A DNA stretch of 64,000 bases, taken from Flavobacterium sp. 83 (GTDB lineage Bacteria > Bacteroidota > Bacteroidia > Flavobacteriales > Flavobacteriaceae). Below are positions 6,494 to 25,705 of this stretch, one piece after another (positions within the stretch are counted from its first letter, which is position 1; each line of letters opens with the position of its first letter). The translations under genes were made by a program, and so were the position numbers. The notes beneath the pieces are model-generated. The model was not told the origin of the DNA. It made no database searches and saw nothing but the letters and a program-made list of their open reading frames with translations. The stretch is taken from NCBI RefSeq assembly GCF_000744835.1, contig NZ_JQMS01000001.1:2356001-2420000 (forward strand). The letters run 5' to 3'.

Positions 6494-7525
6494 ATGAAAA
6501 AAATGTCAAAAATTGATAGCCTTAGAATTGATGAGCTTTCTGCCACTCCAAAGTATCAGCAGCTGGTCAACGCAGTTTTGAATGCCATTAAGCAAGGTAT
6601 TCTTAAAAAAGGGGATGCGATGCCGTCTATCAATGAATTGAGTTTTCAATACGAAATATCTAGGGTTACGATTGAAAAAGGATATAATAAGTTACGAAAA
6701 ATGGGCATTTTAGAAGCCTTTCATGGAAAAGGCTACTTTATTGCCAATACGGATGTATCACAAGATTTGAAAATATTCCTGATGTTTAATAAATTGAGTG
6801 CGCACAAGAAAATTATTTATGATGCTTTTGTAGAGACTTTGGGCGAAAAAGCAGCTATTGATTTTTATATTTATAATAATGATTACGGTCTTTTCAAAAA
6901 ATTATTGAACCAACAAAAAAGTATTTATACCCACTATGTTATCATTCCCCATTTTATTGAAAAAGCAGAAGGCTATCAATTGTTGATTGAAGAAATTCCA
7001 AAAGAAAAATTAATTATCGTAGGTAAAAAAATTGAAGGTATTACGGGAAATTATGGTGCAGTTTACGAGAATTTCGAAGAAGATATTTACAATGCGCTCA
7101 GTAAAGCTTTAGACCTTTTGAGTAAATACCATACCATAAAATTGATTTTTCCTGACAATAGTTATTTTCCAGATGAGATAATAAAAGGGTTTAAAAACTT
7201 TTGTTACAGTTATGCTTTCAATTATAAAATCGTACATAATCTGGATCAGGAAGAAGTAAATGAAGGTGAAGTATATATTAATTTAATGGAAGAAGATTTA
7301 GTGAAAATTTTGGATAAAATCATCACCTTGAATTTAACGGTAGGGGAGCAAGTAGGGGTAATTTCTTATAATGAAACACCTCTCAAGAAATTTATCATGA
7401 ATGGACTTACCACTATCTCAACCGATTTTGCTACAATGGGAAAATCTGCGGCACAGCTGGTGTTAAACTCTTCAAAAGAACATATCGAAAATCCGTTTGA
7501 ACTGATTCTTAGAGGATCTTTATAA
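6494..7525 (+). CDS. GntR-type regulator with periplasmic-binding-like sensor domain
   Basis: 343 residues. A GntR winged helix is at about 18-85 (YQQLVNAVLNAIKQG, DAMPSINELS, SRVTIEKGYNKLRKMGIL, HGKGYFIAN). The rest (about 90-343) resembles the LacI/AraR-type sugar-sensing domain, including a C-terminal stretch like GVISYNETPLKKFIMNGLTT with TDFATMGKSAA, where LacI-type sensors usually read TI, then a promoter-like 'M' and 'G..A'. This GntR-plus-sugar-sensor design is used by AraR-like regulators. Its position at the head of the rhamnose island makes it the best candidate for the rhamnose-responsive regulator. It forms a pair with the lysR gene 10 bp downstream. The effector and the sign of regulation are inferred, not shown. 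Confidence 0.88.
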   Translation: MKKMSKIDSLRIDELSATPKYQQLVNAVLNAIKQGILKKGDAMPSINELSFQYEISRVTIEKGYNKLRKMGILEAFHGKGYFIANTDVSQDLKIFLMFNKLSAHKKIIYDAFVETLGEKAAIDFYIYNNDYGLFKKLLNQQKSIYTHYVIIPHFIEKAEGYQLLIEEIPKEKLIIVGKKIEGITGNYGAVYENFEEDIYNALSKALDLLSKYHTIKLIFPDNSYFPDEIIKGFKNFCYSYAFNYKIVHNLDQEEVNEGEVYINLMEEDLVKILDKIITLNLTVGEQVGVISYNETPLKKFIMNGLTTISTDFATMGKSAAQLVLNSSKEHIENPFELILRGSL

Positions 7526-7535
7526 TACAATATTA

Positions 7536-8426
7536 ATGGAATTACGTAAATTAAAATCGTTTCTGGTTGTTGCAAAAGAATTGCATTTTGGTAAAGCTGC
7601 TGAAAAATTAAATATTACTCAACCGGCCTTAACACATCAAATTCAGCAATTGGAAAACGAGCTGGGTTTTGAACTTTTTGACAAAGTAAAACGGGTTAAT
7701 AATAGAAAAGTTGAATTGACTGAAGCGGGTGCTTATTTAATGAAAGAAGTAAGTCGTGTAATAGATTTACTAGACAGAACAATTAAAAGTGCCAAGATAA
7801 ATAGTGAAAAAAGTAAACAATTAAAACTGGGCATCCCTAAAATGTCTCCTACAAGTGAGGTTATAGCAGTATTACAAAAGTTACAACTGAAGTTTCCTGA
7901 AACCACTTTTAAAATAATAGAATGTTCTACAGTGGTATCAGTGCAAGAAGCGCTTTTTAAAGGGAATATAGATATTGGAATTACTACTTTACCGCTAGTT
8001 TTTAAAGGTTTGGATTATCAGGTTTTCCGGAAAGAATCTCTAAATGTTATTATGCCTAAAAAACATCCACTGGCAAAATATCAAAAAATTAAAATTGAAC
8101 AACTTCGTAATGACAAATGGGTAGAGTTAACTAAGGACTTGTGTCCTGCAATTCTGGAAGATGTAGAAGTCTTTTGCAGAAATGTAGGTTTCTCTAGAGA
8201 TGCTAATATTGTTCAGGAAGTGTCAAATGTTGAATTATTGATTGGATTGGTTACTGTAGGAATTGGAATTGCTATTTTTCCATCCTATTATCCAACAAAT
8301 TTAGAGGGGATTATTTCTAAAGAATTAGTTTTTTCTGAAAATACCCATTTAGAAGTTACCAAAATAGTGGCATACAAAGAAACACTTGAGGAAGAATACC
8401 AGCAAACAATAAAAAATGTTTGGTAA
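7536..8426 (+). CDS. LysR family transcriptional regulator
   Basis: 296 residues, the usual length for the family. The N-terminal helix-turn-helix (about 1-60) shows the LysR signature: LRKLKSFLVVAKELHFGKAA, ITQPALTHQIQQLE, LGFELFD. The C-terminal part (about 90-290) is the two-lobed effector-binding domain (IDIGITTLP and GIGIAIFPSYY segments). It starts 10 bp after gntR, so the two are probably translated from one message. LysR regulators are uncommon for neutral sugar catabolism, so it may sense an acid such as lactate or regulate an unlinked target. It is followed by a strong terminator and then the GH106 unit. Confidence 0.92.
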   Translation: MELRKLKSFLVVAKELHFGKAAEKLNITQPALTHQIQQLENELGFELFDKVKRVNNRKVELTEAGAYLMKEVSRVIDLLDRTIKSAKINSEKSKQLKLGIPKMSPTSEVIAVLQKLQLKFPETTFKIIECSTVVSVQEALFKGNIDIGITTLPLVFKGLDYQVFRKESLNVIMPKKHPLAKYQKIKIEQLRNDKWVELTKDLCPAILEDVEVFCRNVGFSRDANIVQEVSNVELLIGLVTVGIGIAIFPSYYPTNLEGIISKELVFSENTHLEVTKIVAYKETLEEEYQQTIKNVW

Positions 8427-8520
8427 ATAGTCTTTTACCAATAGCGTACTAAATAATGAATTGTTTGAAGGATCTAAAAAAAATGTTAACTAACATTTTA
8501 GCATAGAGTACTTTATTTTT

Positions 8521-8563
8521 AAAACCAACTCTTCTCTTTAAGAGGAGTTGGTTTTCTTTTTGT
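8521..8563 (+). terminator. Rho-independent terminator after the gntR-lysR pair
   Basis: AAAACCAACTC (8521-8531) pairs with GAGTTGGTTTT (8545-8555) around a short pyrimidine/purine loop that can extend the stem. A T-rich tract follows. It separates the regulator operon from the GH106 promoter. Confidence 0.85.
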
Positions 8564-8641
8564 GTTTTTTTGATTCGAGATTTCCAATAAATAAATTTTA
8601 TTAAAAAGAATAAAAAAAGTAATCAAAAAGTAGTTTGCGAT

Positions 8642-8687
8642 AACGATTGAGTAGGACAGTTATGTTTTTGATATTTCTTTAATTTAC
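8642..8687 (+). promoter_or_regulatory. Rhamnose-type promoter box 1 (upstream of GH106)
   Basis: AACGATTGAG directly followed by TAGGACAGTT (8652-8661). The two halves share the pattern nGAYnG at a 10-bp offset, as in a direct-repeat activator site. The box ends 18 bp before a -7-like TAATTTAC (8680-8687). Near-identical arrangements occur at 12627-12646 and 19561-19580, and the match with the third site continues through the spacer. An activator overlapping the -33 region is inferred. Confidence 0.6.
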
Positions 8688-8840
8688 AAAAAAGAACATC
8701 AGTAGTATTTCTATATTTAAAAGAGAAATATTTTTTGTAGTATTAAAAAAGGGAAACTTTTAATAAAAATGGCTGGTTACTTTTTAAATATGTCTTTCAG
8801 TAAAATTTAAAATAATTTTCAATCTATATAATTTTCAAAT

Positions 8841-11800
8841 ATGAAAAAAAATTCGGGATTAATAGCAGCATTTTCTTTGATGCTTGCCTGCAGCTCTGGT
8901 TATGCTCAAAATAAGAGTGATAACTTATTGAAAGAGTTTGCTACACCTCCAAATTCTGCAAAGCCTCGTGTATGGTGGCATTGGATGAATGGTAATATTT
9001 CTAAAGATGGTATTACCAAAGATCTTTTGTGGATGAATAGAATAGGTATTGGTGGTTTCATGAATTTTGATGCTGCGATGGCAACACCTCAAATTGTAAA
9101 AAAGCGCCTAACTTACATGACTCCTGAATGGAAAGATGCTTTTCAGTTTACAACTAAATTGGCCGATTCCCTAAAACTGGAAATGGCTATTGCAGGTTCA
9201 CCGGGATGGAGCGAAAGTGGTGGGCCGTGGGTAAGTCCAAAAGATGGAATGAAAAAATTAGTGTGGAGTGAAATCCGCATAAAAGGCGGAAAAAAATTCA
9301 CTGGGGTTTTGCCAAAAGCGCCTACTAAAACAGGACCATTCCAGAACATTCCTTTCTTTGAAGCAATGCCTATGGGAGAATCGGTAGCAGCTCCAGCTGA
9401 TTATTATGAAGACATCAGTCTTATGGCATATAAATTGCCGGATACAGAAATAAATTTAAGCGATTTAAAACCAAAGATTACCTCAAGTGGAGGGGCTTTT
9501 ACGATAAACCAACTTACAGACGGAGACTTAGGAACGACTATTTTGCTGCCTGCTACTAAAAACGATGAAAGCGCCTGGATACAATTTGCTTTTGAAAAAC
9601 CACAAACGTTCAAAGGAATAACTGTTGTTGGTGGTGGAGACAAAGGCCCTTTTGGTCTTTTTGGAGACAAAGCGGATACACGTTCCGTTGAAGTAAGCGA
9701 TGATGGTGTTCATTTCAAAAAAATCACTTTTATTCCTGCTGGAGGAATTGTACAACAAACTATTAATTTTTCAGTAACAACTGCAAAATATTTCAGGGTT
9801 ACTTTTAAAAATCCTCCTCCTCTTTTTAGTTTTGCAGCGATGATGGGGTCAAACGAAGCTCCAAAACCTTCGCCAGGAACGGATGTTGCCGAAATAGTTT
9901 TGCATAATACAACGCAAATTGATCGATTTGAAGAAAAAGCGGCTTTTGCTGCTGTCAGAAATATCGACATAAATGGTACTCCTAGTACTGATGGAATTGC
10001 ATTGGAAAATGTAATTGATTTATCAGGTAAATTGAATGCAGACGGAACATTGAATTGGACTCCACCTGCAGGAAATTGGAAGCTTGTACGTTTTGGATAT
10101 TCATTGTTGGGAATAACCAATCATCCGGCTTCACCGGAAGCAACCGGATTAGAAGTAGACAAATTAGATCCAGTTGCCATAAAAGCGTATTTTGAAAATT
10201 ACCTCGATCAATACAAGAGTGCTACAGGAGGCTTAATGGGAGATAAAGGTGGTTTACAATACATTGTTACCGATAGTTGGGAAGCTGGAGCGCAAAACTG
10301 GACGAAAAATTTACCGGCTGAGTTTGCCAAAAGAAGAGGATATAGTTTATTGCCATGGTTACCAGTATTAACGGGGCAAATTATTAAAAGTTCTGAAGTC
10401 AGTGAAAAATTCTTATGGGATTACCGCAAAACTTTAAGCGAAATGGTATCTGAATACCATTATGATCAGTTGACAACATTATTAGCGGAGCGTGGAATGA
10501 AGCGCTATTCTGAATCTCATGAGTCTGGTCGTACGTTAATTGCCGATGGTATGGAAGTCAAACGTACGGCTTCTATCCCTATGGGAGCGATGTGGACACC
10601 AGGAGGCTTAGGAGGAGATGATGCAGTACATAAGGCAGATATTAGAGAATCCGCATCGGTAGCCCATATTTATGGACAAAATTTAGTGGCAGCCGAGTCG
10701 CTTACTGCAATTGGTAACGCATGGGCATTTTCACCAGAGCGGTTGAAACCAACTGCAGATATGGAATTAGCGAGTGGACTCAATCGATTTGTGATTCATA
10801 CTTCGGTACATCAACCATCAGATGAGCATGTTCCCGGTCTTGGACTTGGACCATTCGGACAGTGGTTTACGCGTCACGAAACTTGGGCCGAACAAGCAAC
10901 AGCCTGGACAGATTATCTTTCCCGCAGTTCCTATTTGTTGCAACAAGGGAAATTTGTAGCGGATGTTATTTATTATTATGGAGAAGACAATAATATCACG
11001 TCTCTTTTTGAAAAAAAATCACCAAACATTCCGCAAGGATATAATTTTGATTATGTTAATGCCGATGCGCTTCTTAACTTGCTTTCTGTAAAAAATGGAC
11101 AAATTGTTACTCCAAGTGGTATGCATTATAAAGTTTTGGCACTGGATGCTAATAGCCAACAAATGACATTAAAAGTGGCTAATAAAATTAGTGAATTAGT
11201 AAAAGCAGGAGCAATTGTTGTAGGGCCTAAGCCAATAGGGTCTCCAAGTTTAAACGATGATAAAACTGCTTTTAATACAATTGTAGCTGAGTTATGGGGT
11301 GCTGATAACACGGTAAAATCGATTGGTGACGGAAAAGTATATACAGGAGAAACCATCGAAAAAGTCTTAACCGCTTTAGCTGTTAAACCAGATTTTGAAT
11401 ATACTAAACCGCAGGCTGATACTCAGTTATTATTTGTGCATCGTGAATTACCGGAGCAAGAATTGTATTGGGTAAACAATCGCAATGCAAGAACCGAAGA
11501 TCTTGAAGCAACTTTCAGAGTTTCTGGAAAAACAGTAGAAATTTGGCATCCTGAAACAGGTAAGTCGCAACCAGCTTCATATTCTTTTGCAGATGGACGC
11601 ACTAAAGTAGCTTTGCATTTAGAGCCTAATGATGCTGTATTTGTTGTTTTTAAAGACAATACTACTACAACAGCGCAAATTTTACCAGCTGTAACCGAAA
11701 CTAAATTAGCTGCTGTGGAAGGAAACTGGAATTTGAGTTTCCAAAAAGAAAGAGGAGCGCCTTCAGAAATTACAATGGATAAGTTGACTTCTTGGACAGA

Positions 11801-12188
11801 TAATTCAGATGCTGGCGTGAAGTATTTTTCAGGAACAGGAACCTATTCAAAAACAATTGATGCACCAAAAAGCTGGTTTAAAAATCAGGGACAATTATGG
11901 ATTGATCTTGGAGAAGTAAAAAACCTGGCCGAAGTTATCGTTAATGGAAAATCATTAGGAATTGTTTGGAAAAAACCATTCAGAGTAGATGCAACTGGTA
12001 TTTTGAAACCAGGAAAAAACACCTTGGCGATAAAAGTGACGAATCTTTGGGTAAATAGACTTATTGGAGATGCACAACCGGGAGTAGTAAAGAAAATCAC
12101 CTATACTACGATGCCATTTTACAAAGCAGACGCTCCATTGTTACCGTCAGGATTACTGAGTACAGTAACTGTTTTATCAGTGAAATAG
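8841..12188 (+). CDS. GH106 alpha-L-rhamnosidase, exported
   Basis: 1115 residues. The mature N-terminus carries the GH106 hallmarks FATPPNSAKPRVWWHWMNGNI, then a TKDLLWMNRIGIGGF-like stretch, GSPGWSESGGPWV and SHESGRTLIADGMEV. The central part matches the long catalytic (beta/alpha) domain of family 106. The C-terminus has a GH2-like beta-sandwich (WIDLGEVKNLAEVIVNGKSLG, NTLAIKVTNLWVN). An N-terminal signal (MKKN..AFSLML, ending SGYAQ) exports it. The Cys in LMLAC is a weak lipobox, so surface or periplasmic anchoring is possible. The enzyme removes terminal alpha-L-rhamnose from plant or microbial glycans. It has its own promoter box upstream and a terminator downstream, so it forms a single-gene unit. 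Confidence 0.93.
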   Translation: MKKNSGLIAAFSLMLACSSGYAQNKSDNLLKEFATPPNSAKPRVWWHWMNGNISKDGITKDLLWMNRIGIGGFMNFDAAMATPQIVKKRLTYMTPEWKDAFQFTTKLADSLKLEMAIAGSPGWSESGGPWVSPKDGMKKLVWSEIRIKGGKKFTGVLPKAPTKTGPFQNIPFFEAMPMGESVAAPADYYEDISLMAYKLPDTEINLSDLKPKITSSGGAFTINQLTDGDLGTTILLPATKNDESAWIQFAFEKPQTFKGITVVGGGDKGPFGLFGDKADTRSVEVSDDGVHFKKITFIPAGGIVQQTINFSVTTAKYFRVTFKNPPPLFSFAAMMGSNEAPKPSPGTDVAEIVLHNTTQIDRFEEKAAFAAVRNIDINGTPSTDGIALENVIDLSGKLNADGTLNWTPPAGNWKLVRFGYSLLGITNHPASPEATGLEVDKLDPVAIKAYFENYLDQYKSATGGLMGDKGGLQYIVTDSWEAGAQNWTKNLPAEFAKRRGYSLLPWLPVLTGQIIKSSEVSEKFLWDYRKTLSEMVSEYHYDQLTTLLAERGMKRYSESHESGRTLIADGMEVKRTASIPMGAMWTPGGLGGDDAVHKADIRESASVAHIYGQNLVAAESLTAIGNAWAFSPERLKPTADMELASGLNRFVIHTSVHQPSDEHVPGLGLGPFGQWFTRHETWAEQATAWTDYLSRSSYLLQQGKFVADVIYYYGEDNNITSLFEKKSPNIPQGYNFDYVNADALLNLLSVKNGQIVTPSGMHYKVLALDANSQQMTLKVANKISELVKAGAIVVGPKPIGSPSLNDDKTAFNTIVAELWGADNTVKSIGDGKVYTGETIEKVLTALAVKPDFEYTKPQADTQLLFVHRELPEQELYWVNNRNARTEDLEATFRVSGKTVEIWHPETGKSQPASYSFADGRTKVALHLEPNDAVFVVFKDNTTTTAQILPAVTETKLAAVEGNWNLSFQKERGAPSEITMDKLTSWTDNSDAGVKYFSGTGTYSKTIDAPKSWFKNQGQLWIDLGEVKNLAEVIVNGKSLGIVWKKPFRVDATGILKPGKNTLAIKVTNLWVNRLIGDAQPGVVKKITYTTMPFYKADAPLLPSGLLSTVTVLSVK

Positions 12189-12238
12189 AAAATTATTCCT
12201 TTCGAATGATTTGAAATAATTAGAATTTAATTTTAAAG

Positions 12239-12277
12239 AGGTGGAACCAAAACGAAATAGTTTGGTTTCACCTTTTT
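12239..12277 (+). terminator. Rho-independent terminator after GH106
   Basis: GGTGGAACCAAAAC (from 12240) pairs with GTTTGGTTTCACC (to 12272), with one G-T wobble and one bulged A, followed by TTTTT. Confidence 0.8.
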
Positions 12278-12626
12278 GTTGTTTTATAAATTCAAATCCT
12301 TTTTGAGGCTTTTTTAAGAGTATTATTTCAATATTTTGGACTATAAAGCATGTGGATTTATTTTTAAAAGAGAAAAATACCCTTTTAAAGATATTAAATG
12401 TCAATTTTTTAATTGTAAAAACACACAAACTCCCTTGTTTATGAGGGTTTAAGTAAATAATTAGGGATTTAAGTGTAAGATTTTTAACTGTTTAAAATGT
12501 TTTCTTTGACCGTTTGTATGCTTAGAGGCTCCCTTTTTTCTATGCAGTCTTTATCTTTCATAGCTGTTTTGATTAATAAAATTTATTATTTTAATAAATA
12601 AAAAGAATTAAAACAATGTTTTCTAT

Positions 12627-12671
12627 TACGATTGCGTAGGACAGTTGATAGAAGTGGTATTGTTAAATTTG
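12627..12671 (+). promoter_or_regulatory. Rhamnose-type promoter box 2 (upstream of the TonB receptor)
   Basis: TACGATTGCG followed by TAGGACAGTT (12637-12646). It ends 17 bp before TAAATTTG (12664-12671), a perfect TAnnTTTG -7 box. There is no TTTG at the -33 spacing; the box occupies that position, as expected for activator-dependent promoters. Confidence 0.65.
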
Positions 12672-12749
12672 AATTATATAAAACATAAAAATATGTTATG
12701 TATAAAAAAATCCAAGAATAAATAAATACTAACTAAAAAAAACCAAAAA

Positions 12750-15635
12750 ATGAAGAAGTTTTTACAACAACATCGAGTTGCCCTGTTCCTGATAAAGGCA
12801 TTGGTGTTGTATTTGGGATTCTGTACCCAAGCGATGGCGCAACAAATTATTCAGGGTAAAGTGACTGATGAAAAGAATGAACCACTTATAGGTGTAAGTG
12901 TTACAATAAAAGGAATAAATAATGGAATAAATACTGATGCTGATGGAAAGTATACAATCACAGCTAAAAGTAATTCGACTTTAGTTTTTAATTATATAGG
13001 TTTTAAAACTAAACAGGTTGTTATTAGTAATCAAACAACTGTTAATGTTGTACTACAAGGAGACACACAGGCATTAGATGAGGTTGTAGTTACAGGTGTA
13101 TTGGATAAGCGTACAAGAATGCAATCTTCTGTTTCTATTTCGACCATTAGTGCGAAACAATTTGATAAAATTGCGATTACCAGTTCTGCTGATTTATTGA
13201 AAAATATCCCAGGAGTATTTGTGAATTCCTCTTTAGGAGAAATACGTAATACAGTATACTCTCGTGGGGTATCTGTAGGGTCAAATGATGGAGCTTCGGG
13301 TTATTATTATATTTCTATGCAAGAGGATGGATTACCGGTAACGAATGCAACATTTGGTAATTACGGTCCTGATTATTTCTTACGCACAGATGCTACTTTA
13401 GGTAAACTGGAAGCAGTAAGAGGAGGAACAGCTTCTATCTTGGGTAATAATGCTCCCGGAGGAATCTTTAATTATGTTTCTAAATTAGGTGGATCTAAAT
13501 TTGAAGGAGAAATTCGTGCTAAATATGGTTTAGAAGGAAACGGAAAAAATCCGTATTACCGAACTGACTTTGATTTTGGAGGGCCTTTGAGTAAAGCCAA
13601 ATCGGTTACATTTAACGTAGGTGGATTTTTACGTCAATCTGATGGAGCCAGATATTCTGGATACCCGATGAATAATGGTGGACAAATAAAAGCGAATTTG
13701 GTAAAAACGTATAAAACGGGTTCTGTTAAAGTTTTTGCAAAGTACCTTAATGATAAAAATGGATGGAACGAATTTACACCAACTATTGGTTTTAGTGATC
13801 CACATTATCCAGCTGGGGTTACTAATACTACTTCGGTATTAATTCCGGCAGTTACAGCTGATTTTACAGTAAACCAAACGGGGGAAAAGATGCACTATGA
13901 TTCAAGAGATAAAGTACATTCTATTGATAAATCTATTGGAATTAACTGGGATCAAGACTTAGGAAAAGGATGGAAATTAGACAATAAAATACGTTATTCT
14001 GATAAAAGTGCTGTTTGGAATACTACCGCTGTAGTGTATCCATTTGCTACTGATACTCCTGTTTTTTATGCTGTTTCTGGGAATTTATTCAATTTTGGAA
14101 CATATTCTTTTAACGATCATGCAACTGGAACTCAAATAGGTTCAGTTACTCATTCTCCAAATATAATTGGCGGTAATTTTGCAGGATTTAATGAAACAGT
14201 AAATTATAGTAACTTTCCTGGTGCTTCTATACAGCCTAACTCTTTGTATTTTAATCCTATTTTCTTCAATCAAAATAAAATGAAAGAAATCATAGATCAA
14301 TTTACAATTACCAAAAAAATCAATAAAATGACTTTTACGGGAGGAATGTTTTTTGCTAAATCAAATTTAGATAGATTGTCATCTACAGGTATTGGGGTAT
14401 CATATTCTCAAATGACTTCACCACGTCCATCATTAACAGATATTTCATATATTGGTTTATTTGATGGTCAAACGTATCAAGTAACAAATCCTGACGGAAT
14501 AACTGGTGGTTCAGGAAAAAGTGCTCCAGTAGATATTATTTCAGTAGCTCAAAAACAAATGGCTTTTTTCTTTGGTCATACTTGGGAGATGAGTTCAAAA
14601 GTAAATTTTGACTGGGGTATTCGTTCTGAAACAGTATCTTTTAATGGAAACAATCAAATTTCTGAAAGTGTAGCTACAACTAATCCAGGTGGAACAGATG
14701 GAAATCCATTGACATTATATGATAATACAATGGGGCGTATTGCTGCAACTTATGCTTATTCAGACAAGAAAGTAAATACTTTTTCTTTTTCAAGTGGTTT
14801 GAATTATAAATTTGCTGATAATCAAGCTGTTTATGGTCGTTATTCTCTTGGGAATAAAGCGCCAGATATGGATATGTTTGTAACTACAAACACAGCATTT
14901 GGAGCTGCTAATTTGAATCCTACGGCTCAAAAAATACAACAATATGAGGCTGGTTACAAATTGAAAACTGCAGGAACTAATTTATTTGTAACTCCTTTTT
15001 ATAGTATCGTGAGCAATGTACCGCAACGAACAACTGGTCAAGAAACAGCTGATATTACTACTGCTTACAATACACCTGCTTTGTATAATAAATTTAGAAC
15101 TATGGGTGTTGAATTTGAAGTAAATCAGGAATTTACAGAAAAATTTAGTGTAAAAGCAGTAGCTACTTTTCAAGATTCTAAAGCAGTTATATACAGAACT
15201 TGGGATTTAGGGGCTAATGGATCAGCAGATGATAAAATAGTTGACTTTTCTGGAAACGAAACAGATAATAATGCTAAAGTAATTCTTAGAGTTTCACCTA
15301 CCTATGCTTCTGGTAAATTTTATTCTTCTCTTGATTTTTCTTATATGGGAAAACGTGCAGCTAACGTACCAAATGCATTCGAATTACCATCTTACAATCA
15401 AACAAACTTGAATTTAGGATACAATTTGACTGCAAAATTGCAATTGCAAGCTAACATTAACAACCTTTTTAACCAAATTGGCGTAATGGGTTGGTCAGCA
15501 CCAGGAGGATTTCCTGCAGCATTAGACAGACAAGGATTCACAGCAGAGAAATTGGCTGCTAATCCAAACGCAGTATATTCTACTTTAAGCTTACCGGCTA
15601 GAGCATATTTCATTACTGCTACTTATAAATTTTAA
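12750..15635 (+). CDS. TonB-dependent outer-membrane receptor (CarboxypepD_reg-like N-domain)
   Basis: 961 residues. A signal peptide is cut after AMA (residue 30). A carboxypeptidase-regulatory-like domain follows at about 34-104 (IQGKVTDEKNEPLIGVSVTI, DGKYTI, LVFNYIGFKT). A TonB box EVVVTG is at 111-116, then the plug (about 125-240; LLKNIPGVFV, RGGTASILGNNAPGGIFNYV) and a large beta barrel ending in a C-terminal Phe (ARAYFITATYKF). It should import a ligand across the outer membrane using TonB energy. It resembles SusC-like receptors in its N-domain, but no SusD lipoprotein follows. It heads a unit with an esterase and a GH78 rhamnosidase, so rhamnose-containing oligosaccharides or glycosides are the likely cargo. 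Confidence 0.92.
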   Translation: MKKFLQQHRVALFLIKALVLYLGFCTQAMAQQIIQGKVTDEKNEPLIGVSVTIKGINNGINTDADGKYTITAKSNSTLVFNYIGFKTKQVVISNQTTVNVVLQGDTQALDEVVVTGVLDKRTRMQSSVSISTISAKQFDKIAITSSADLLKNIPGVFVNSSLGEIRNTVYSRGVSVGSNDGASGYYYISMQEDGLPVTNATFGNYGPDYFLRTDATLGKLEAVRGGTASILGNNAPGGIFNYVSKLGGSKFEGEIRAKYGLEGNGKNPYYRTDFDFGGPLSKAKSVTFNVGGFLRQSDGARYSGYPMNNGGQIKANLVKTYKTGSVKVFAKYLNDKNGWNEFTPTIGFSDPHYPAGVTNTTSVLIPAVTADFTVNQTGEKMHYDSRDKVHSIDKSIGINWDQDLGKGWKLDNKIRYSDKSAVWNTTAVVYPFATDTPVFYAVSGNLFNFGTYSFNDHATGTQIGSVTHSPNIIGGNFAGFNETVNYSNFPGASIQPNSLYFNPIFFNQNKMKEIIDQFTITKKINKMTFTGGMFFAKSNLDRLSSTGIGVSYSQMTSPRPSLTDISYIGLFDGQTYQVTNPDGITGGSGKSAPVDIISVAQKQMAFFFGHTWEMSSKVNFDWGIRSETVSFNGNNQISESVATTNPGGTDGNPLTLYDNTMGRIAATYAYSDKKVNTFSFSSGLNYKFADNQAVYGRYSLGNKAPDMDMFVTTNTAFGAANLNPTAQKIQQYEAGYKLKTAGTNLFVTPFYSIVSNVPQRTTGQETADITTAYNTPALYNKFRTMGVEFEVNQEFTEKFSVKAVATFQDSKAVIYRTWDLGANGSADDKIVDFSGNETDNNAKVILRVSPTYASGKFYSSLDFSYMGKRAANVPNAFELPSYNQTNLNLGYNLTAKLQLQANINNLFNQIGVMGWSAPGGFPAALDRQGFTAEKLAANPNAVYSTLSLPARAYFITATYKF

Positions 15636-15661
15636 GTTTCATAATTGTTTTTTTAGAAATG

Positions 15662-15695
15662 ACCAGATAAGACTTATTGTCTTATCTGGTTTTTT
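15662..15695 (+). terminator. Terminator or attenuator after the receptor gene
   Basis: ACCAGATAAGAC (15662-15673), loop TTATT, perfect complement (15679-15690), then TTTTT. The following esterase starts only about 50 bp later with no clear promoter, so partial read-through that lowers esterase/GH78 expression relative to the receptor is likely. Confidence 0.8.
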
Positions 15696-15747
15696 AGGTA
15701 ACTTTCAATTTATAAATGATTTAAAAATATCCTCAAATCTTTCAAAA

Positions 15748-16746
15748 ATGATAAAACAAGCAACAATTCTAGTCCTGTTATTGAGCTTTACAATGAGTAA
15801 TGCTCAAAAAGTAATTCCACTTTACAATGGAAAAGTTCCTAATTCTAAAGAGATAGCAGGATTGACGGATACAACAGCTGTTTTTCCATCAGGAAATAAA
15901 ATGATTCATTTTGTTTTGAGGGTTGCCAGTCCGGATTTGACTATTTTTTTGCCAGAGAAAAGTAAAGCTACTGGTATAGCGGTTATTATTTGTCCAGGTG
16001 GAGGTTATTCGGGTTTGGCAATTGACCATGAAGGGTATGATATTGCCAAAAAATTAAATGAAAAAGGGATTGCGGGTTTTGTTTTAAAATACCGCTTGCC
16101 CAATGCGCTATATGTTGAAAACAAACAAATAGTTCCTTTGCAAGATGCACAACGTGCTATTCAGTTGGTTCGGGAAAATGCTAAAAAATGGGGAATCAAT
16201 CCCAATAAAATTGGTATAGAAGGAAATTCGGCAGGAGGACATTTAGCTTCCACAGCCGGCACACATTATCAAAAAGCACTAATTGACAATCCGCTAAAAA
16301 CCAGTTTGCGTCCAGATTTTATGGTTTTAAATTATCCCGTTATCAGCATGGCGGATAGTTTGACACATATGGGGTCACGATATAATTTGATAGGCGAAGG
16401 ATTATCTCCTGTAGCATTGAATAAAATTATGAGTGACTGGAAAACATCAGAACAAAAATTAGTCAGCCTACCAGTAAATGGAGATAAAATTAAAGAATAT
16501 TCTAATGAATTGCAGGTTACGGCAAATACACCTCCTACATTTATAACGCATTCGGTAGATGATAATACAGTTAAAGTGCAAAATTCTATTTTGTTTATAG
16601 CGGCGTTGCAAAAAAATAAAGTTCCGGTCGAATCTTTCTTTTATGCCAAAGGCGGACACGGTTATAGCATGGATAATCCTACTAGCGATGTAGAATGGAT
16701 TGACAGTTGTACAGCTTGGATTTTAAAGATTAATAAAGGATTATAA
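15748..16746 (+). CDS. Exported alpha/beta-hydrolase, probable carbohydrate (acetyl) esterase
   Basis: 332 residues with a signal peptide (MIKQATILVLLLSFTMSNA). The alpha/beta-hydrolase fold shows an oxyanion-type motif CPGGGYSGLA (82-91), the nucleophile elbow GNSAG with S161, D271 or D272 in SVDDNTV, and H304 in KGGHGY. The same layout occurs in BD-FAE-type and other polysaccharide-deacylating esterases of Bacteroidota. It likely removes acetyl or other acyl groups from rhamnose-containing glycans in the periplasm so that the rhamnosidases can act. It lies between the receptor and GH78 genes, 28 bp before the latter. The exact acyl substrate cannot be read from sequence. Confidence 0.88.
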   Translation: MIKQATILVLLLSFTMSNAQKVIPLYNGKVPNSKEIAGLTDTTAVFPSGNKMIHFVLRVASPDLTIFLPEKSKATGIAVIICPGGGYSGLAIDHEGYDIAKKLNEKGIAGFVLKYRLPNALYVENKQIVPLQDAQRAIQLVRENAKKWGINPNKIGIEGNSAGGHLASTAGTHYQKALIDNPLKTSLRPDFMVLNYPVISMADSLTHMGSRYNLIGEGLSPVALNKIMSDWKTSEQKLVSLPVNGDKIKEYSNELQVTANTPPTFITHSVDDNTVKVQNSILFIAALQKNKVPVESFFYAKGGHGYSMDNPTSDVEWIDSCTAWILKINKGL

Positions 16747-16774
16747 AATAAAAATTAACCTAATAGATCAAATA

Positions 16775-19462
16775 ATGAAAAAAAACATTCTGATTTTACT
16801 ATTCATTTGTTTCAATGCAATAGCTTTTGGACAAACAGAACTTCGAAATCTTACTGTCGAAAATGCAAGTAATCCAATTGGTATTGGAGTAAAAACACCA
16901 CGTTTTAGTTGGCAATTGGTTTCTAATAAAAGAAACGTAAAACAAACGGCTTACGAAATTCAGGTTAAAGAAGGAAATACTACCGTTTGGTCTTCCGGAA
17001 AAGTGACTTCGGAAGCGTCTATTTTTAATAAATATGCCGGTTCGCCATTAGTATCTAATGCGAAATACATTTGGCAAGTACGCGTTTGGGATAATCAAGG
17101 CAAGTCTTCTAAATGGGCAACAGCTTCTTTTGGAACTGCTTTACTTCATTCGAATGAATGGAAAGCAACTTGGATTGGATCTGGGTTAAAAAGCGATACC
17201 GTAAATGGTGTTGTACCCATGTTCAGAAAATCATTTTTGGCCAATAAAAAAATAGCTTCCGCAAAAGTGTATGTAACTTCAAGAGGTTTGTATGAGGTTC
17301 AAATCAACGGGAAACGAATGGGAGATTCCTATTTATCTCCAGGTTGGACCAGTTATGATAAGCACTTACAATACCAGACGTATGATGTTTCTGATTTGCT
17401 TTCAGAAGGGAAAAATGCCATTGGAGTATTGTTAGGAAGTGGTTGGTACCGCACGCGTTTAGGTTGGGAAAACAGGCAAAATATTTATGGAAAAGAAACG
17501 GCGCTGCTTTTTCAAATGGTAATTAAATACACTGACGGAACAACTGAAACGGTAGTTTCTGATACTTCTTGGAAATCGAGCAATAGTCACATTATCTCTT
17601 CTGAAATTTATAACGGCGAAGTTCAAGATGCCCGTTTGGAACAAAAAAACTATAGTGTTGCTAATTTTGATGATAGCAAATGGACAAACGTTGTTAACAA
17701 AGACTTTCCAACAAATTATATTACGGCTGCCATCAATGAGCCAATTCGCAAACACGAAAATTTAAAACCAATAGCTGTTTTGACTTCTCCAAAAGGGGAA
17801 ACAATTTTGGACTTTGGTCAAAACCTGGCAGGTTGGGTAAAAGTAAGTGTTCAAGGAAAAGCGGGTGATATCATCAAACTTTCTCACGTAGAAATGTTGG
17901 ACAAAAAAGGAACTCCTTATTTTGAAAACTTACGTTCTGCCAAAGCACAAGCTACTTACACTTTAAGTGGTAATGGAATTGAAACTTTCGAACCTCATTT
18001 TACGACTTTTGGTTTTCGTTATTTAAAAGTAGAAGGAATTACAGGGAAAATAAACCCAAATGATTTTACGGCAATTGCATTATATTCTGACATTAAAAAA
18101 ACGGGTGCTTTTGAAACTTCAAATGCATACCTAAACAAATTACAATCTAATATTCAATGGAGCCAAAGAGGGAATTTCTTGGACGTACCTACAGATTGTC
18201 CACAACGGGACGAACGTTTAGGCTGGACCGGTGATGCCGAAGTATTTTCAAGAACAGCTTCTTTTAATTTTAATGTGGATCAGTTTTTTGCAAAATGGCT
18301 AATTGATGTTGCGGCAGACCAAAAAGAAAATGGAGCAGTGCCATTTGTTATTCCAAATGCTTTGAAAGGATCTTTTTTTGATATGCCTGTTGGAGCTGCA
18401 GGTTGGTCGGATGCCAGTGTTATTATTCCGTACAATATGTATGTGAGTTTTGGCGACAAGGAAATCGTAGAAAGACAATATCCAAGCATGAAAGCGTATT
18501 TAGGCTATGTGCAAAGTACTGCCAAAAATGATTTGTGGAATACTGGTTTTCAGTTTGCAGATTGGTTGAGCTATAGAGTGGATGATTCGAAAGGGATGAT
18601 AGGAATGAAATCCGCTATTACCGATAACTATTTGGTTGCCCAATGTTTCTATGCCTACAATACTCAAATTATGATAAAAGCCGCTACTTTATTGGGTAAA
18701 ACCGATGAAGTACAGGAATATCAAGCGCTTTTGGAACGCATAAAGAAAGCATTTCAAACCGAATATATGACAGCATCAGGCAAGTTAATTTCGGAAACAC
18801 AAACTGCTTATATTTTGGCTTTACAATTTGATATGTTACCAGAAAACTTAAGAGCGCAAGCGGTTGATCGTTTGGTAAAAAATATCGAAAGTTATGAGTA
18901 TCATTTGACTACCGGATTCTTGGGAACACCTTTTTTAAATCCCGTTTTGACCCGTTTTGGACGAAATGACGTGGCTTACAAATTGTTGCTTCAAGACACC
19001 TATCCTTCATGGTTGTATCCAATAAAAGCGCACGGAGCGACTACAATTTGGGAACGTTGGGACTCGATGAAACCGGACGGTACTTTTCAAGATCCAAGCA
19101 TGACTTCCTTTAATCATTACGCGTATGGTGCAGTGGGAGATTGGATGTATAGAACAATTACAGGTATTGATACTAAAGAAGCCGAAGGTGCAGGATATAA
19201 ATCAATTATTATTAAACCTGAACTTGGTGGAAATTTGACGTATGCCAAAGCAAGTTTAGAAACAAATTATGGTTTAGTTTCTTCTTCTTGGAAAATAGAA
19301 AAGAACAAATTTATTCTTGATGTTGAAGTTCCTGCAAACACAAATGCTACGATTGAATTTCCAACAAATAAAATAGAAACTATAAAAGAAAACAATGCTG
19401 TTTTAAATGTAAAAACTAAAACAGTTGGTTCAGGAAAGTATCATTTTGAAATGGAACTTTAA
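16775..19462 (+). CDS. GH78 alpha-L-rhamnosidase, exported
   Basis: 895 residues with a signal peptide ending AFGQ. The domain order is typical of GH78: an N-terminal fibronectin-like region (PRFSWQL, YEIQVK), two beta-sandwich domains (about 125-440), an (alpha/alpha)6 barrel (about 445-790) and a C-terminal beta domain. The family signature DVPTDCPQRDERLGWTGDAE is at 470-489. E480 is the probable general acid, and E760 in TIWERWD is a probable base. It hydrolyses terminal alpha-L-rhamnosyl bonds. Having both GH78 and GH106 in one island suggests complementary linkage preferences. It follows the esterase by 28 bp in the same unit. Confidence 0.95.
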   Translation: MKKNILILLFICFNAIAFGQTELRNLTVENASNPIGIGVKTPRFSWQLVSNKRNVKQTAYEIQVKEGNTTVWSSGKVTSEASIFNKYAGSPLVSNAKYIWQVRVWDNQGKSSKWATASFGTALLHSNEWKATWIGSGLKSDTVNGVVPMFRKSFLANKKIASAKVYVTSRGLYEVQINGKRMGDSYLSPGWTSYDKHLQYQTYDVSDLLSEGKNAIGVLLGSGWYRTRLGWENRQNIYGKETALLFQMVIKYTDGTTETVVSDTSWKSSNSHIISSEIYNGEVQDARLEQKNYSVANFDDSKWTNVVNKDFPTNYITAAINEPIRKHENLKPIAVLTSPKGETILDFGQNLAGWVKVSVQGKAGDIIKLSHVEMLDKKGTPYFENLRSAKAQATYTLSGNGIETFEPHFTTFGFRYLKVEGITGKINPNDFTAIALYSDIKKTGAFETSNAYLNKLQSNIQWSQRGNFLDVPTDCPQRDERLGWTGDAEVFSRTASFNFNVDQFFAKWLIDVAADQKENGAVPFVIPNALKGSFFDMPVGAAGWSDASVIIPYNMYVSFGDKEIVERQYPSMKAYLGYVQSTAKNDLWNTGFQFADWLSYRVDDSKGMIGMKSAITDNYLVAQCFYAYNTQIMIKAATLLGKTDEVQEYQALLERIKKAFQTEYMTASGKLISETQTAYILALQFDMLPENLRAQAVDRLVKNIESYEYHLTTGFLGTPFLNPVLTRFGRNDVAYKLLLQDTYPSWLYPIKAHGATTIWERWDSMKPDGTFQDPSMTSFNHYAYGAVGDWMYRTITGIDTKEAEGAGYKSIIIKPELGGNLTYAKASLETNYGLVSSSWKIEKNKFILDVEVPANTNATIEFPTNKIETIKENNAVLNVKTKTVGSGKYHFEMEL

Positions 19463-19560
19463 TTTTTTTTGCGAGGAACTGTAAAAAAGTATAAATAACT
19501 ACTCCCACATTCGTATCACGTCTGAGAGGGTCGGGGAGAGGAAAAAAAAGGTGTTTTTAT

Positions 19561-19606
19561 AAGGACTGTATAGGACTGTTTTGTTTTAGATATTCTCTTA
19601 TTTTAC
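19561..19606 (+). promoter_or_regulatory. Rhamnose-type promoter box 3 (upstream of rhaT operon)
   Basis: Here the two halves are nearly exact copies: AGGACTGT (from 19562) and, 10 bp later, AGGACTGT in TAGGACTGTT (19571-19580). The box ends 18 bp before a -7-like TATTTTAC (19599-19606). The spacer (TTGTTTTAGATATTCTCT) is close to that of box 1. This marks a new start of transcription for the catabolic genes. Confidence 0.65.
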
Positions 19607-19643
19607 AACACCAGAATCACTAACCATAAATTATTAATATTAA

Positions 19644-20693
19644 ATGGAATCAATACTCGGAATTCTTTTTCACTCGATAGGAGGTTTCTCCTCAGGGAGT
19701 TTTTATATGCCTTTCAAAAAGGTAAAAGGTTGGGCTTGGGAAAGCTATTGGATCGTAGGTGGGTTTTTCTCTTGGTTGGTAGTTCCGCCAATTGCAGCCT
19801 ATTTAACCATTCCTGGTTTTGCCGAAATTATTAGTGCAGCAGTTCCAACAGTAAAAGCAGTTACCTATTCTATGGGATTGATTTGGGGAATAGGAGGACT
19901 TACGTATGGTCTTGGTGTACGCTATTTGGGAATGTCATTAGGGAATTCCATTACATTGGGTTTTTGTTCTGCTTTTGGAGCATTAGTACCTTCTATTTAT
20001 TATAATTTTTATCCAGTTGCAGGTAAAGTTTCTTTTACCGATATGCTTTCTAATACTGGTGGTCAAGTTGTTTTGCTAGGTGTATTGGTTTGTCTTATGG
20101 GTATTGCTATTTCTGGAAAAGCAGGAATGCTCAAAGAAGCAGATTTTGCTACGGGACATGAGGGTAAAGACAAAGATTTTAGCCTGGTAAAAGGATTGAT
20201 TATAGCTGTAATATCAGGTATTCTGAGTTCGTTTTTCAATTTTGGAATAGAAGCAGGAAAACCAATGGCTGATGAGGCAGTAAGACAGGGCTTTAATCCT
20301 TTGTTCCAGAATAATGTTACTTATGTAGTGTTGCTTTGGGGTGGATTGACTACCAACTTTATTTGGTGCATGTACCTAAATTTCAAAAACAAAACTTTTG
20401 GAGATTATACAAATACTGAAACTCCAATAGCTAAAAATACTTTTTTCTCAGCCATTGCAGGTACGATGTGGTTTTTACAATTCTTCTTTTATGGAATGGG
20501 CGAAAGCAAATTGGGTAACGGAGCCAGTTCTTGGATTTTACACATGGCAACTATTATTCTAACGGCTAACTTTTGGGGATTTTATCTCAAAGAATGGTCT
20601 GGGGTGTCCAAAAAAACTTTTAGAACATTCCTTTGGGGTATCGGTCTTATCATGGCTTCAATCTTTTTGGTGGGCATTGGAAATTCACTTTAA
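19644..20693 (+). CDS. rhaT: L-rhamnose/H+ symporter RhaT
   Basis: 349 residues with about ten hydrophobic helices and the RhaT family pattern from the first residues: ILFHSIGGFSSGSFYMPFKK, GWAWESYWIVGGFFSW, then GLTYGLGVRYLGMSLGNS. It imports L-rhamnose with a proton across the inner membrane, after periplasmic rhamnosidases release it. Codon and length match the family (about 340-350). It is the first gene of the unit running to lutC, and promoter box 3 lies just upstream. The next gene starts 46 bp downstream. Confidence 0.97.
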   Translation: MESILGILFHSIGGFSSGSFYMPFKKVKGWAWESYWIVGGFFSWLVVPPIAAYLTIPGFAEIISAAVPTVKAVTYSMGLIWGIGGLTYGLGVRYLGMSLGNSITLGFCSAFGALVPSIYYNFYPVAGKVSFTDMLSNTGGQVVLLGVLVCLMGIAISGKAGMLKEADFATGHEGKDKDFSLVKGLIIAVISGILSSFFNFGIEAGKPMADEAVRQGFNPLFQNNVTYVVLLWGGLTTNFIWCMYLNFKNKTFGDYTNTETPIAKNTFFSAIAGTMWFLQFFFYGMGESKLGNGASSWILHMATIILTANFWGFYLKEWSGVSKKTFRTFLWGIGLIMASIFLVGIGNSL

Positions 20694-20739
20694 TAATCAA
20701 AAAATAAGATACTTTTTATATCACTTTTAATATAACACT

Positions 20740-22881
20740 ATGTCAAATATAAATACAAATAACATGACTTTTCAGCACGTAAGCTACCTTTGGGATGAAG
20801 CTAAAGCTAAGGAATTAGCAGGAGATGAAGTAGCACTTTTCATTTATCGCTCTAATTTATTAGGAGCCGATTTGAGATTAACGAACTATGGAGGTGGAAA
20901 CACTTCGGTAAAAATTACTGATAAAGACCCATTAACAGGAACTGATTCTGAAGTAATGTGGATCAAAGGTTCTGGTGGAGACATTGGGACATTAACAAAA
21001 TCAGGTTGTGCGGCACTTTATTTAGAAAGACTTCGCAATTTGGAAAACGTATACAGAGGGATCGAATTTGAAGATGAAATGGTGGAATTATTCAATCACT
21101 GTATTTTTGACTTAGCGTCAAAAGCACCTTCAATTGATACCCCTTTACACGGTTTCTTGCCTTTCAAACATATTGATCACTTGCACCCAGATGCGGCTAT
21201 TGCTATTGCTGCTGCAAAAGACGGAGCGAAAATCACCGAAGAATTATTCAACGGAGAAATCGGTTGGGTGGGATGGCAACGTCCAGGTTTCGACTTGGGT
21301 TTACAAATGCGTGCTTGTCTGGAAGAAGCGGAAGCAAAAGGAAAAAAATTAAAAGGAGTAATGTTAGGTTCTCACGGTTTGTTTACTTGGGGAGACACTT
21401 CTTATGAAAGTTATGTCAATACGCTTGAAGTAATTGAAAAATGTGCCGAATATCTGGAAAGCAACTATGGTAAAAACCGTGCTGTTTTTGGAGGTCAAAA
21501 AATAGAAAGTTTAGATGTGGCTGCACGTCAATTGAAAGCGGCTAAAGTAGCTCCGATATTACGTGGTTTCTGTTCCTCAGAGCGCAAAATGATTGGTCAT
21601 TATACCGATGATGCCAGAGTATTGGAATTTATTAATTCGAATGATTTAGAGAAATTGGCTCCGCTTGGAACGTCTTGTCCAGACCATTTCTTGCGTACAA
21701 AAATTAGTCCTTTGGTATTGGAGTTAGATCCAAACGAAGATTTATCTGATGTGGAAGCAATCAAAGCAAAATTAACTCCTGCATTTGAAGCGTACCGTAA
21801 GATGTATTCAGACTATTACAATACGTGTAAGAAAGCGAATTCACCAGCGATGCGAGACCCAAATCCTGTGGTAATTTTATATCCAGGAGTTGGGATGTTC
21901 ACTTTCGCAAAAGATAAAACAATGGCGCGTTTAGCATCAGAATATTACATTAATGCGGTAAACGTGATGAAAGGTGCGGAAGCTGTTTCAGAATATACTT
22001 CGTTGCCGCGTCAGGAAGCTTTTGATATTGAATATTGGTTGCTTGAAGAAGCTAAATTGCAACGTATGGCAAAACCAAAAGCGTTGTCAGGGCGAATCGC
22101 TTTGATTACAGGTTCTGCGGGCGGGATAGGTAAAGCTATCGCAAAAAGATTTGCAGAAGAAGGTGCTTGTGTAGTTATCAATGACATCAATGAGGAACGT
22201 TTAGAAGGAGCTACAGCTGATTTTATAAAAACTTTTGGTAAAGATGCCGTTTCAAGTGCTTTGCTAAACGTAACCGATGAAAAAAGTACTGAAAAAGCAT
22301 TGGATGCTGCTTGTTTGGCCTTTGGAGGAGTAGATATTGTAGTAAATAATGCTGGAATCAGTATCTCAAAATCGATTGCAGAACACAGTTTAGAAGACTG
22401 GGATAAATTATATGATATCTTGGTTAAAGGGCAATTTATTGTCTCTAAAGCTGGAATAGAAGTAATGCGCAAACAAGGATTTGGTGGCGATATTGTAAAC
22501 ATCGTATCCAAAAATGCAGTAGTTGCAGGGCCAAATAACCCTGGTTATGGTTCCGCCAAAGCAGCTCAGGCACATTTAACACGTTTAATGGCTGCCGAAT
22601 TAGGTGCTGATAAAATTCGTGTGAATACCGTAAACCCTGATGCAGTAATCTCTGATTCCAATATTTGGTCAGGTGGTTGGGCAGAAGGTCGTGCCAAAGC
22701 GTATGGCGTTACGGTAGCTGAATTGCCGGCTTACTATGCAAAACGTACGTTGTTGAATGAAATTATATTACCGGATGATATTGCTAATGCCTGTTTTGCA
22801 TTTGTAGGTGGTTTGTTGAATAAATCAACAGGAAATGCCTTAAATGTTGATGGTGGAGTTGCAATGGGCTTTTATAGATAG
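20740..22881 (+). CDS. rhaEW: Bifunctional rhamnulose-1-phosphate aldolase / L-lactaldehyde dehydrogenase
   Basis: 713 residues combining two enzymes. Residues about 30-420 form a class II aldolase/adducin domain with metal-binding His clusters (DTPLHGFLPFKHIDHLHPDA, GSHGLFTWG). It splits L-rhamnulose-1-phosphate into dihydroxyacetone phosphate and L-lactaldehyde. Residues about 448-713 form a short-chain dehydrogenase with the nucleotide motif TGSAGGIG, VNNAGIS and the catalytic Y603xxxK607. It should oxidise L-lactaldehyde to L-lactate with NAD. This is the RhaEW fusion type known from other bacteria, unlike the separate RhaD of Escherichia coli. It is followed by the isomerase gene after a 173-bp gap containing a hairpin. 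Confidence 0.95.
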   Translation: MSNINTNNMTFQHVSYLWDEAKAKELAGDEVALFIYRSNLLGADLRLTNYGGGNTSVKITDKDPLTGTDSEVMWIKGSGGDIGTLTKSGCAALYLERLRNLENVYRGIEFEDEMVELFNHCIFDLASKAPSIDTPLHGFLPFKHIDHLHPDAAIAIAAAKDGAKITEELFNGEIGWVGWQRPGFDLGLQMRACLEEAEAKGKKLKGVMLGSHGLFTWGDTSYESYVNTLEVIEKCAEYLESNYGKNRAVFGGQKIESLDVAARQLKAAKVAPILRGFCSSERKMIGHYTDDARVLEFINSNDLEKLAPLGTSCPDHFLRTKISPLVLELDPNEDLSDVEAIKAKLTPAFEAYRKMYSDYYNTCKKANSPAMRDPNPVVILYPGVGMFTFAKDKTMARLASEYYINAVNVMKGAEAVSEYTSLPRQEAFDIEYWLLEEAKLQRMAKPKALSGRIALITGSAGGIGKAIAKRFAEEGACVVINDINEERLEGATADFIKTFGKDAVSSALLNVTDEKSTEKALDAACLAFGGVDIVVNNAGISISKSIAEHSLEDWDKLYDILVKGQFIVSKAGIEVMRKQGFGGDIVNIVSKNAVVAGPNNPGYGSAKAAQAHLTRLMAAELGADKIRVNTVNPDAVISDSNIWSGGWAEGRAKAYGVTVAELPAYYAKRTLLNEIILPDDIANACFAFVGGLLNKSTGNALNVDGGVAMGFYR

Positions 22882-22914
22882 GGTTTTTAGATGTTTGTTT
22901 TTTAGATTGATTTG

Positions 22915-22943
22915 TCTAACGTCCCTATATTTAGGGCGTTAGA
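22915..22943 (+). other. Intercistronic hairpin between rhaEW and rhaI
   Basis: TCTAACG-T-CCCTA (22915-22927) pairs with TAGGGCGTTAGA (22932-22943) with one bulged T. There is no T-run after it, so it is more likely an mRNA-processing or stability element than a terminator. It sits in the longest gap of the catabolic unit. Confidence 0.5.
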
Positions 22944-23054
22944 TTTGTCTAAATTTGTAAACAAGTTCTTTTAAAAATTTAAATTGTTTTAATAATATGC
23001 TTCATCCATCAACTTCTTTTAAAGAAGTTTTTTATTTACCTTAAAAAAATTACT

Positions 23055-24329: not shown

Positions 24330-24342
24330 AAACCAATCAAAA

Positions 24343-25704: not shown

Positions 25705-25705
25705 T

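Follow-up and report, generated by a model that had tools for sequence, protein, structure and literature searches.

A tandem-repeat box ahead of rhamnose genes in Flavobacteriaceae, a probable operator of a GntR-family regulator

Results

Three promoters of a rhamnose locus carry a common box

Pectin (in its rhamnogalacturonan) and the algal polysaccharide ulvan, which flavobacteria degrade, have rhamnose among their building blocks. We analysed a 64,000-nucleotide stretch of Flavobacterium sp. 83 (contig NZ_JQMS01000001.1, positions 2,356,001 to 2,420,000; hereafter the window), in which a box of 20 base pairs (bp) lies ahead of a GH106 rhamnosidase gene, a TonB-dependent receptor gene and the rhamnose gene rhaT. 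The boxes and the -7-like elements that follow them are:

8642..8661, + strand: box site 1, before GH106, AACGATTGAGTAGGACAGTT (read directly)
8680..8687, + strand: -7-like element of site 1, TAATTTAC, 18 bp past the box, an imperfect fit to TAnnTTTG
12627..12646, + strand: box site 2, before the TonB-dependent receptor, TACGATTGCGTAGGACAGTT (read directly)
12664..12671, + strand: -7 element of site 2, TAAATTTG, 17 bp past the box
19561..19580, + strand: box site 3, before rhaT, AAGGACTGTATAGGACTGTT, an exact tandem of AGGACTGT with a 10-bp period
19599..19606, + strand: -7-like element of site 3, TATTTTAC, 18 bp past the box

The genes around them are:

6494..7525, + strand: GntR-family regulator of 343 amino acids, the proposed binder of the box (Pfam PF00392, E 1.7e-12; PF13377, E 1.3e-6)
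7536..8426, + strand: LysR-family regulator of 296 amino acids (Pfam PF00126/PF03466), starting 10 bp past the GntR gene
8841..12188, + strand: GH106 alpha-L-rhamnosidase (Pfam PF17132, 1119.6 bits)
12750..15635, + strand: TonB-dependent receptor (Pfam PF00593/PF07715)
15748-16746, + strand: esterase (Pfam PF20434)
16775-19462, + strand: GH78 rhamnosidase (Pfam PF17389)
19644-20693, + strand: rhaT (Pfam; NCBIfam RhaT above cut-off)
20740-22881, + strand: rhaEW, an aldolase-dehydrogenase fusion (Pfam; NCBIfam bifunctional aldolase/dehydrogenase above cut-off)
23055-24329, + strand: rhaI, a TIM-barrel isomerase (Pfam; NCBIfam isomerase model below cut-off)
24343-25704, + strand: rhaB, an FGGY kinase (Pfam; NCBIfam kinase model below cut-off)

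The genes from rhaT to the last lut gene (19644..28414, + strand) form an apparent rhamnose catabolic operon, and the three genes that follow rhaB, up to 28414, we take to be lutA, lutB and lutC. The name rhaEW for the fusion comes from PMC3870299.

Direct reading agrees with the initial annotation on the coordinates of the three boxes, and the spacers to the -7-like elements, given there as 17-18 bp, measure 18, 17 and 18 bp. The two halves of site 3 are indeed copies of AGGACTGT at a 10-bp period, and the similarity of sites 1 and 3 does extend across the spacer. The description of the left half as RGGAYWGT-like fits site 3, with its exact tandem, but only loosely sites 1 and 2, where the left half reads ACGATTG[A/C]G, two mismatches off that pattern and a loose copy of the right half.

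We rejected the 10-bp core TAGGACWGTT as evidence by itself, as it is no more frequent in the window than chance would give (7 occurrences with up to one mismatch vs 6.0 expected). In the whole genome (Flavobacterium, 3.79 Mb, a single contig), the full 19-mer AGGAYWGTNTAGGACWGTT with up to two mismatches picks out just the three window sites, at 0, 2 and 2 mismatches, with one hit for the reversed control; at up to three mismatches it is at background (8 vs 23 for the control). An exact search for half-box, spacer and -7 element gives five places, including all three window sites, and two for the control. That the box is not a chance likeness follows from its conservation in other genomes.

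The box is conserved ahead of rhaT and rhaEW

With rhaT as query of the genome collection we obtained 568 relatives and kept the best 80, nearly all labelled Flavobacterium. All 80 loci have the box 79-105 bp ahead of rhaT, at 0-2 mismatches; elsewhere in each stretch the best match has 5-8. TATTTTAC recurs at most of the 80 sites. A GntR homolog is found in 75 of the 80 loci; 70 of these are 36-39% identical, all divergent and immediately upstream of rhaT, and the remaining five are 77-90% identical and on the same strand as rhaT. None was seen in L009, L012, L021, L041 and L085, the upstream DNA being too short in L041 and L085. A decayed remnant of a GntR gene of the window type lies within 400 bp upstream of rhaT in L021, where the box is intact.

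Many Flavobacterium loci, among them L013, L014 and L018, carry by eye a second conserved element, ATTACGAAATCGATTGCTAAAATAG, between the GntR gene and rhaT and about 100 bp before the rhaT box. CGATTG occurs in it as in the left halves of sites 1 and 2 of the window, and it may serve the divergent GntR gene as a promoter or for autoregulation. Scanning the window for this element gave nothing better than 7-mismatch matches, and a scan of 6064-6520 for the box itself, as a sign of autoregulation ahead of the window's GntR gene, gave none better than 6 mismatches. We also considered, and set aside, sites of the AAAGGATTGTATACAACAGGTTT type that lie about 2-9 kb upstream in several loci; the group at -2.3 kb was judged from its distance to rhaT and the gene map to lie inside coding sequence (gene cluster c2).

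A genome of another genus, G083, shares the gene order of the window (GntR 86% identical, LysR 82%, GH106 88-89%, receptor 50%, esterase 81%, GH78 86% and rhaEW 95%) and has all three boxes at matching places. At site 1 the box is identical and its flanks have diverged; at site 3 the box is identical and near-identity continues through the -7 element. No rhaT was found in G083 at E 1e-40 or better. In its locus (L140), what seems to be a remnant of rhaT lies between the box at 5888 and rhaEW at 3379-5511, and the kept box now leads to rhaEW. The receptor (window 12750-15635 vs L140 9874-12699) stands out with its 50% identity from neighbours at 81-89% and from nearly identical promoter DNA, a hint that the receptor gene may have been replaced behind a retained promoter.

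A search of 249 genomes of the family found rhaEW in 61 genomes at 62 places, of which we fetched 60, leaving out the window's own and a G061 copy at a contig end. The pattern CAGKAYWGTAYAGGAYWGT was set on the first 34 loci, chosen by GntR or rhaT matches, and then fixed for the 26 held-out loci. With up to four mismatches it occurs upstream of rhaEW in 26 of the 34 pattern-setting loci (reversed 0/34; shuffles 6/680) and in all 26 held-out loci (reversed 0/26; shuffles 10/1040), a set in which the G223 site was already in an earlier site list and L206 is a second copy in a first-set genome. Ten held-out loci match at one mismatch, five at two, nine at three and two at four, and both sets pooled give 52 of 60. 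The other promoters in the held-out loci are bimodal: 8 of 122 lie at 0-3 mismatches, none at four and 114 at five or more. The box is thus enriched at rhamnose genes in other genomes, and an operator common to several rhamnose genes is kept at their orthologs, as in a rhamnose regulon. The initial annotation had spoken of a local regulon. The regulon is supported, but 'local' describes it too narrowly, as the box occurs throughout the family and, in variants, in the class.

Beyond the family we collected 20 rhaEW loci from other families of the order and class, 13 of which have a GntR gene in the stretch. The fixed pattern stands before a rhamnose gene in nine of them, and a relaxed pattern, made after looking at these loci, stands before rhaT, rhaEW or rhaI in 16 (4 of 153 promoters for the reversed control). 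Among loci that lack a GntR gene in the stretch, 12 distant ones (rhaEW 39-43% identical) and L267 (68%) have not a single promoter within four mismatches. The proteins behind non-window boxes, ten of which were scanned, are SusC-type receptors in three cases, GDSL lipases or esterases in four and a DUF5722 protein in one, with no match for two. Boxes also stand ahead of lutA-like genes in L128 and L198. The regulon there thus extends to genes of uptake and deacetylation. Separately, lut genes occupy GntR's place beside rhaEW in several of the held-out loci L200-L209, and at 1417-1465 of L155 overlapping 10-bp units follow one another in series (AGGACAGTACAAGATAGTGCAGGATAGCACAGGATAGTACAAGATAGTG) ahead of a 1013-residue protein, forming a longer tandem array of the box unit.

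The box lies where a -33 element would be expected

Among the 52 rhaEW sites, 50 have TA..TT 17-19 bp past the 19-mer; the stricter TA..TT[TC] lies at exactly 18 bp in 39 sites and at 16 bp in five. Of these 50, only two have TTG at the spacing usual for a -33 element. When 31 sites are aligned (one row, the window's, being misregistered by one base), the box and the -7 element are conserved and the spacer is not. The sigma-A element TAnnTTTG has been mapped at -12 to -5 in Flavobacterium psychrophilum (PMC9723704), and by that numbering of the -7 element the box would span about -49 to -31. Such a placement would suit an activator that substitutes for the -33 element. The fixed spacing, the overlap with the -35/-33 region and the lack of that element are those of a class-II-type site, and they support the earlier proposal that the box replaces the -33 element.

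A GntR protein is the likely binder

The initial annotation had left the choice of binder between the GntR protein and an unlinked protein; the gene neighbourhood and the genomes that carry rhaEW strongly favour GntR. A GntR match at E 1e-30 or better is present in 61 of 61 rhaEW-carrying genomes of the family vs 56 of 188 without rhaEW (compared by hand), and 16 of the 26 held-out loci have a GntR gene in their 10-kb stretch. The window protein has an N-terminal GntR winged helix (PF00392, 47.3 bits vs a cut-off of 27) and a C-terminal LacI-like sensor (Peripla_BP_3, residues 267-342, 29.1 bits vs a cut-off of 26.5), the latter with a weak match to residues 201-304 of CcpA. In a tree of 74 GntR rows it falls inside a supported group of 60, of which 45 are labelled rhamnose-linked; the label is given by neighbours within 6 kb, with the window and the Flavobacterium representatives labelled by hand.

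We then compared recognition-helix residues with the box, leaving bases 3 and 4 of the unit free and thinning near-identical Flavobacterium loci beforehand to ten; a site with its -7 element was obtained at 59 of the 73 eligible loci. Valine or isoleucine at residue 60 goes with G at base 3 of the second unit in 54 of 55 loci and alanine with T in 4 of 4. Similarly, base 4 is G in 53 of 55 loci that have glutamate at residue 61 (one exception, L225, is a register slip) and A in all four that have valine.

A separate supported group of 12 rows in the tree includes the second GntR relative of the source genome (C1:792058; locus L159, G000:C1:782500-802400, gene at 9535-10530 of the locus). Its loci are L159, L161, L171, L175, L178, L181, L186, L187, L191, L192, L195 and L196. 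Neighbours of the paralog are galactokinase, galactose-1-phosphate uridyltransferase and a sodium symporter in L181, and aldose epimerase and transketolase in L159. The tandem element CTACYAGTACCTACYAGTT precedes the paralog's own gene, with up to four mismatches, in 12 of 12 loci (reversed 0/12), in one orientation in eight and in the other in four. It also matches 11 of 137 other promoters, a count in which the sharing of divergent regions is not sorted out. Two groups of one family therefore stand beside two related 10-bp tandem operators, which differ in the first part of the unit and have the YAGT end in common.

Discussion

On the observed sequences, their conservation, their placement relative to the -7 element, their co-occurrence with the regulator and the covariation, we consider it probable that the box is the operator of a rhamnose-responsive GntR regulator (6494-7525), bound in tandem as an activator at the place of the -33 element. 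That the GntR protein binds the box is likely from the comparative evidence, and the geometry argues more for activation than for repression. Rhamnose would be the signal, and a dimer would contact each unit. In the mechanism that we propose, a GntR dimer would sit at about -49 to -31 on a tandem pair of 10-bp units, (A/C)A-G-G/T-A-Y-A-G-T, and would touch RNA polymerase where the -33 element would otherwise be, and the TAnnTTTG-type -7 element would fire only when GntR holds rhamnose or a derivative of it. Three promoters would be served in this way: that of GH106; that of the TonB-dependent receptor, the esterase and GH78; and that of rhaT-rhaEW-rhaI-rhaB and the genes that follow.

Several observations weigh against this proposal. 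GntR regulators are mostly repressors that act on palindromes (PMC4494728, PMC5320631). The consensus reads as a 10-bp tandem repeat, though the self-similarity of the matrix (31 sites, one misregistered) is 0.29 at a shift of 10, 0.29 at a shift of 5 and 0.27 in the best inverted register; these scores are near-equal, and we dropped them as proof of a direct over an inverted repeat. Conservation at site 2 fails to single out the box, because nearly all of the 170-bp promoter stretch is identical between the window and G083. Eight of the 60 rhaEW promoters have no box within four mismatches: in L120 and L140 it lies farther upstream, ahead of rhaT or its remnant; L142 and L145 have variant boxes ahead of GH106; in L143, L144 and L166 a -7 element accompanies a variant at five mismatches; and in L184 no box was found. 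Good boxes (1-4 mismatches) occur without a GntR gene in the 10-kb stretch at 10 of the 26 held-out loci (L200-L209); eight of these ten genomes have a GntR protein within the rhamnose-linked tree group, and those of G223 and G130 were not placed. As for the covariation, 14 of the 73 eligible loci were dropped for want of a site that fitted the neutral pattern and had a -7 element, and some columns outside the helix equal or exceed its scores (315 for base 4; 332, 301 and 63 for base 3). The covariation rests on few clade-level changes and is confounded by clade. It thus supports contact without proving it, and for the same confounding we rejected the mutual-information ranking as proof of contact residues.

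The same GntR protein might bind the box as a repressor that blocks the -33 region without rhamnose and departs with it. AraR of Bacillus subtilis, the named protein of like architecture, is a repressor by its PDB molecule name, most GntR proteins repress (PMC4494728, PMC5320631), and the operators of the galactose paralog occur in both orientations before its own gene, which suits repression. However, the rhamnose box has a single orientation and stands at a nearly constant distance from the -7 element (50/52), with TTG at -33 in just 2/50, whereas a repressor site needs no such placement and would leave the promoter its own -33 element. We therefore regard repression as unlikely. An unlinked AraC or DeoR activator, with the GntR gene merely adjoining, is less probable still, even though the published rhamnose regulators are AraC, DeoR or LacI proteins, with sites that repeat at 10-11 bp for DeoR and 21 bp for AraC (PMC3870299), and at ten held-out loci the box stands with no GntR gene nearby. 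Eight of those ten genomes do have a GntR in the rhamnose-linked group, the box variants track variants of the GntR recognition helix, and the GntR paralog group has a related tandem operator of its own. Pfam on the ten genes from 6494 to 25704 gave GntR and LysR as the regulators, no search aimed at AraC or DeoR genes having been made.

The neighbouring LysR protein (7536-8426) lies 10 bp behind the GntR gene and adjoins GH106, likewise in G083, but an ortholog of at least 50% identity is present in just one of 220 loci scanned (G083), whereas the box is nearly universal. As it is not conserved, we rejected it, and a role for it as the binder is highly improbable. Hardly any weight is left for a chance likeness or a general promoter feature unrelated to rhamnose. 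The 10-bp core is as common as expected, which would fit such a feature, but the reversed pattern is found at none of the 26 held-out loci, 114 of 122 other promoters there lie at five or more mismatches, and no promoter comes within four mismatches at the 12 distant rhaEW loci without a nearby GntR gene. The conservation at the rhaT loci and at held-out rhaEW already refutes it.

Returning to the tandem-bound GntR activator, it is quite possible, and we offer it tentatively, that in aerobic Bacteroidota the proteins of GntR/LacI type make up a class of sugar regulators with a simple recognition-helix code for tandem 10-bp units, with the rhamnose members acting as activators that replace the -33 element. 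In such a code, valine or isoleucine at residue 60 would specify G and alanine T at base 3, and glutamate at residue 61 would specify G and valine A at base 4, with leucine in the galactose paralogs that go with CTACYAGT. If it holds, sequence could reveal the operators and regulons of many paralogs not yet characterised. For the rhamnose system, the testable outcome is a named candidate regulator, an operator and a promoter geometry, together with a pattern for finding the rhamnose regulon in Flavobacteriaceae genomes; if activation is true, the box could provide a rhamnose-inducible promoter for Flavobacterium.

Comparison with known systems

Known rhamnose regulators share parts of this arrangement. 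RhaR of Bacteroides thetaiotaomicron (BT3768) is an activator of a rhamnose operon in the same phylum (PMC3870299, PMC3878776) but belongs to the AraC family and has a 21-bp repeat period (PMC3870299). RhaR proteins of the DeoR family are likewise rhamnose regulators, with two imperfect direct repeats at a 10-11 bp period, but differ in family, and the one tested is a repressor in Rhizobium (PMC3870299). That rhamnose-regulon survey treats Bacteroidales, with a regulator of the AraC family, and uses neither the word GntR nor Flavobacter. Among the matches listed in our search, none describes a rhamnose regulator of the GntR family from flavobacteria; RegPrecise and the subscription journals were outside its scope and may hold an annotation of one.

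Among GntR proteins, FarR, NagQ and NanR are able to bind direct repeats (PMC4494728) but belong to the HutC/FadR subfamilies and respond to other signals, with TGTATTAWTT and TGGTAT-type units. AusR of Zobellia galactanivorans is a GntR regulator of a sugar locus in Flavobacteriaceae, but represses genes of alginate use (by a title cited in PMC9296495). The MocR subfamily (GabR, TauR, PdxR) consists of GntR-family activators on direct repeats, often divergent from their targets (PMC5320631), and the best NCBIfam match of the window winged helix is the MocR-type PdxR (E 2.8e-14, well below cut-off). However, MocR proteins have an aminotransferase-like domain (PMC5320631), whereas the window protein has a LacI-like domain and its Pfam scan gave no aminotransferase family. 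The MocR repeats lie two or three helical turns apart (PMC5320631) and the units of the box one turn apart.

AraR of B. subtilis has the same domain order, a GntR winged helix with a LacI-like sensor. Its operator is presumably a palindrome. The window winged helix matches the DNA-binding domain of AraR in PDB (4egy, E 2.4e-5). AraR is a repressor, as its PDB name states, whereas here the operator reads as a tandem, is placed like an activator site and serves rhamnose genes. The box is real and looks functional, as a tandem-repeat operator that would occupy the -33 position and serve a rhamnose regulator of GntR/LacI type. Should activation be true, the protein would contrast with the repressor AraR in being a GntR/LacI-type activator that acts on a tandem repeat.

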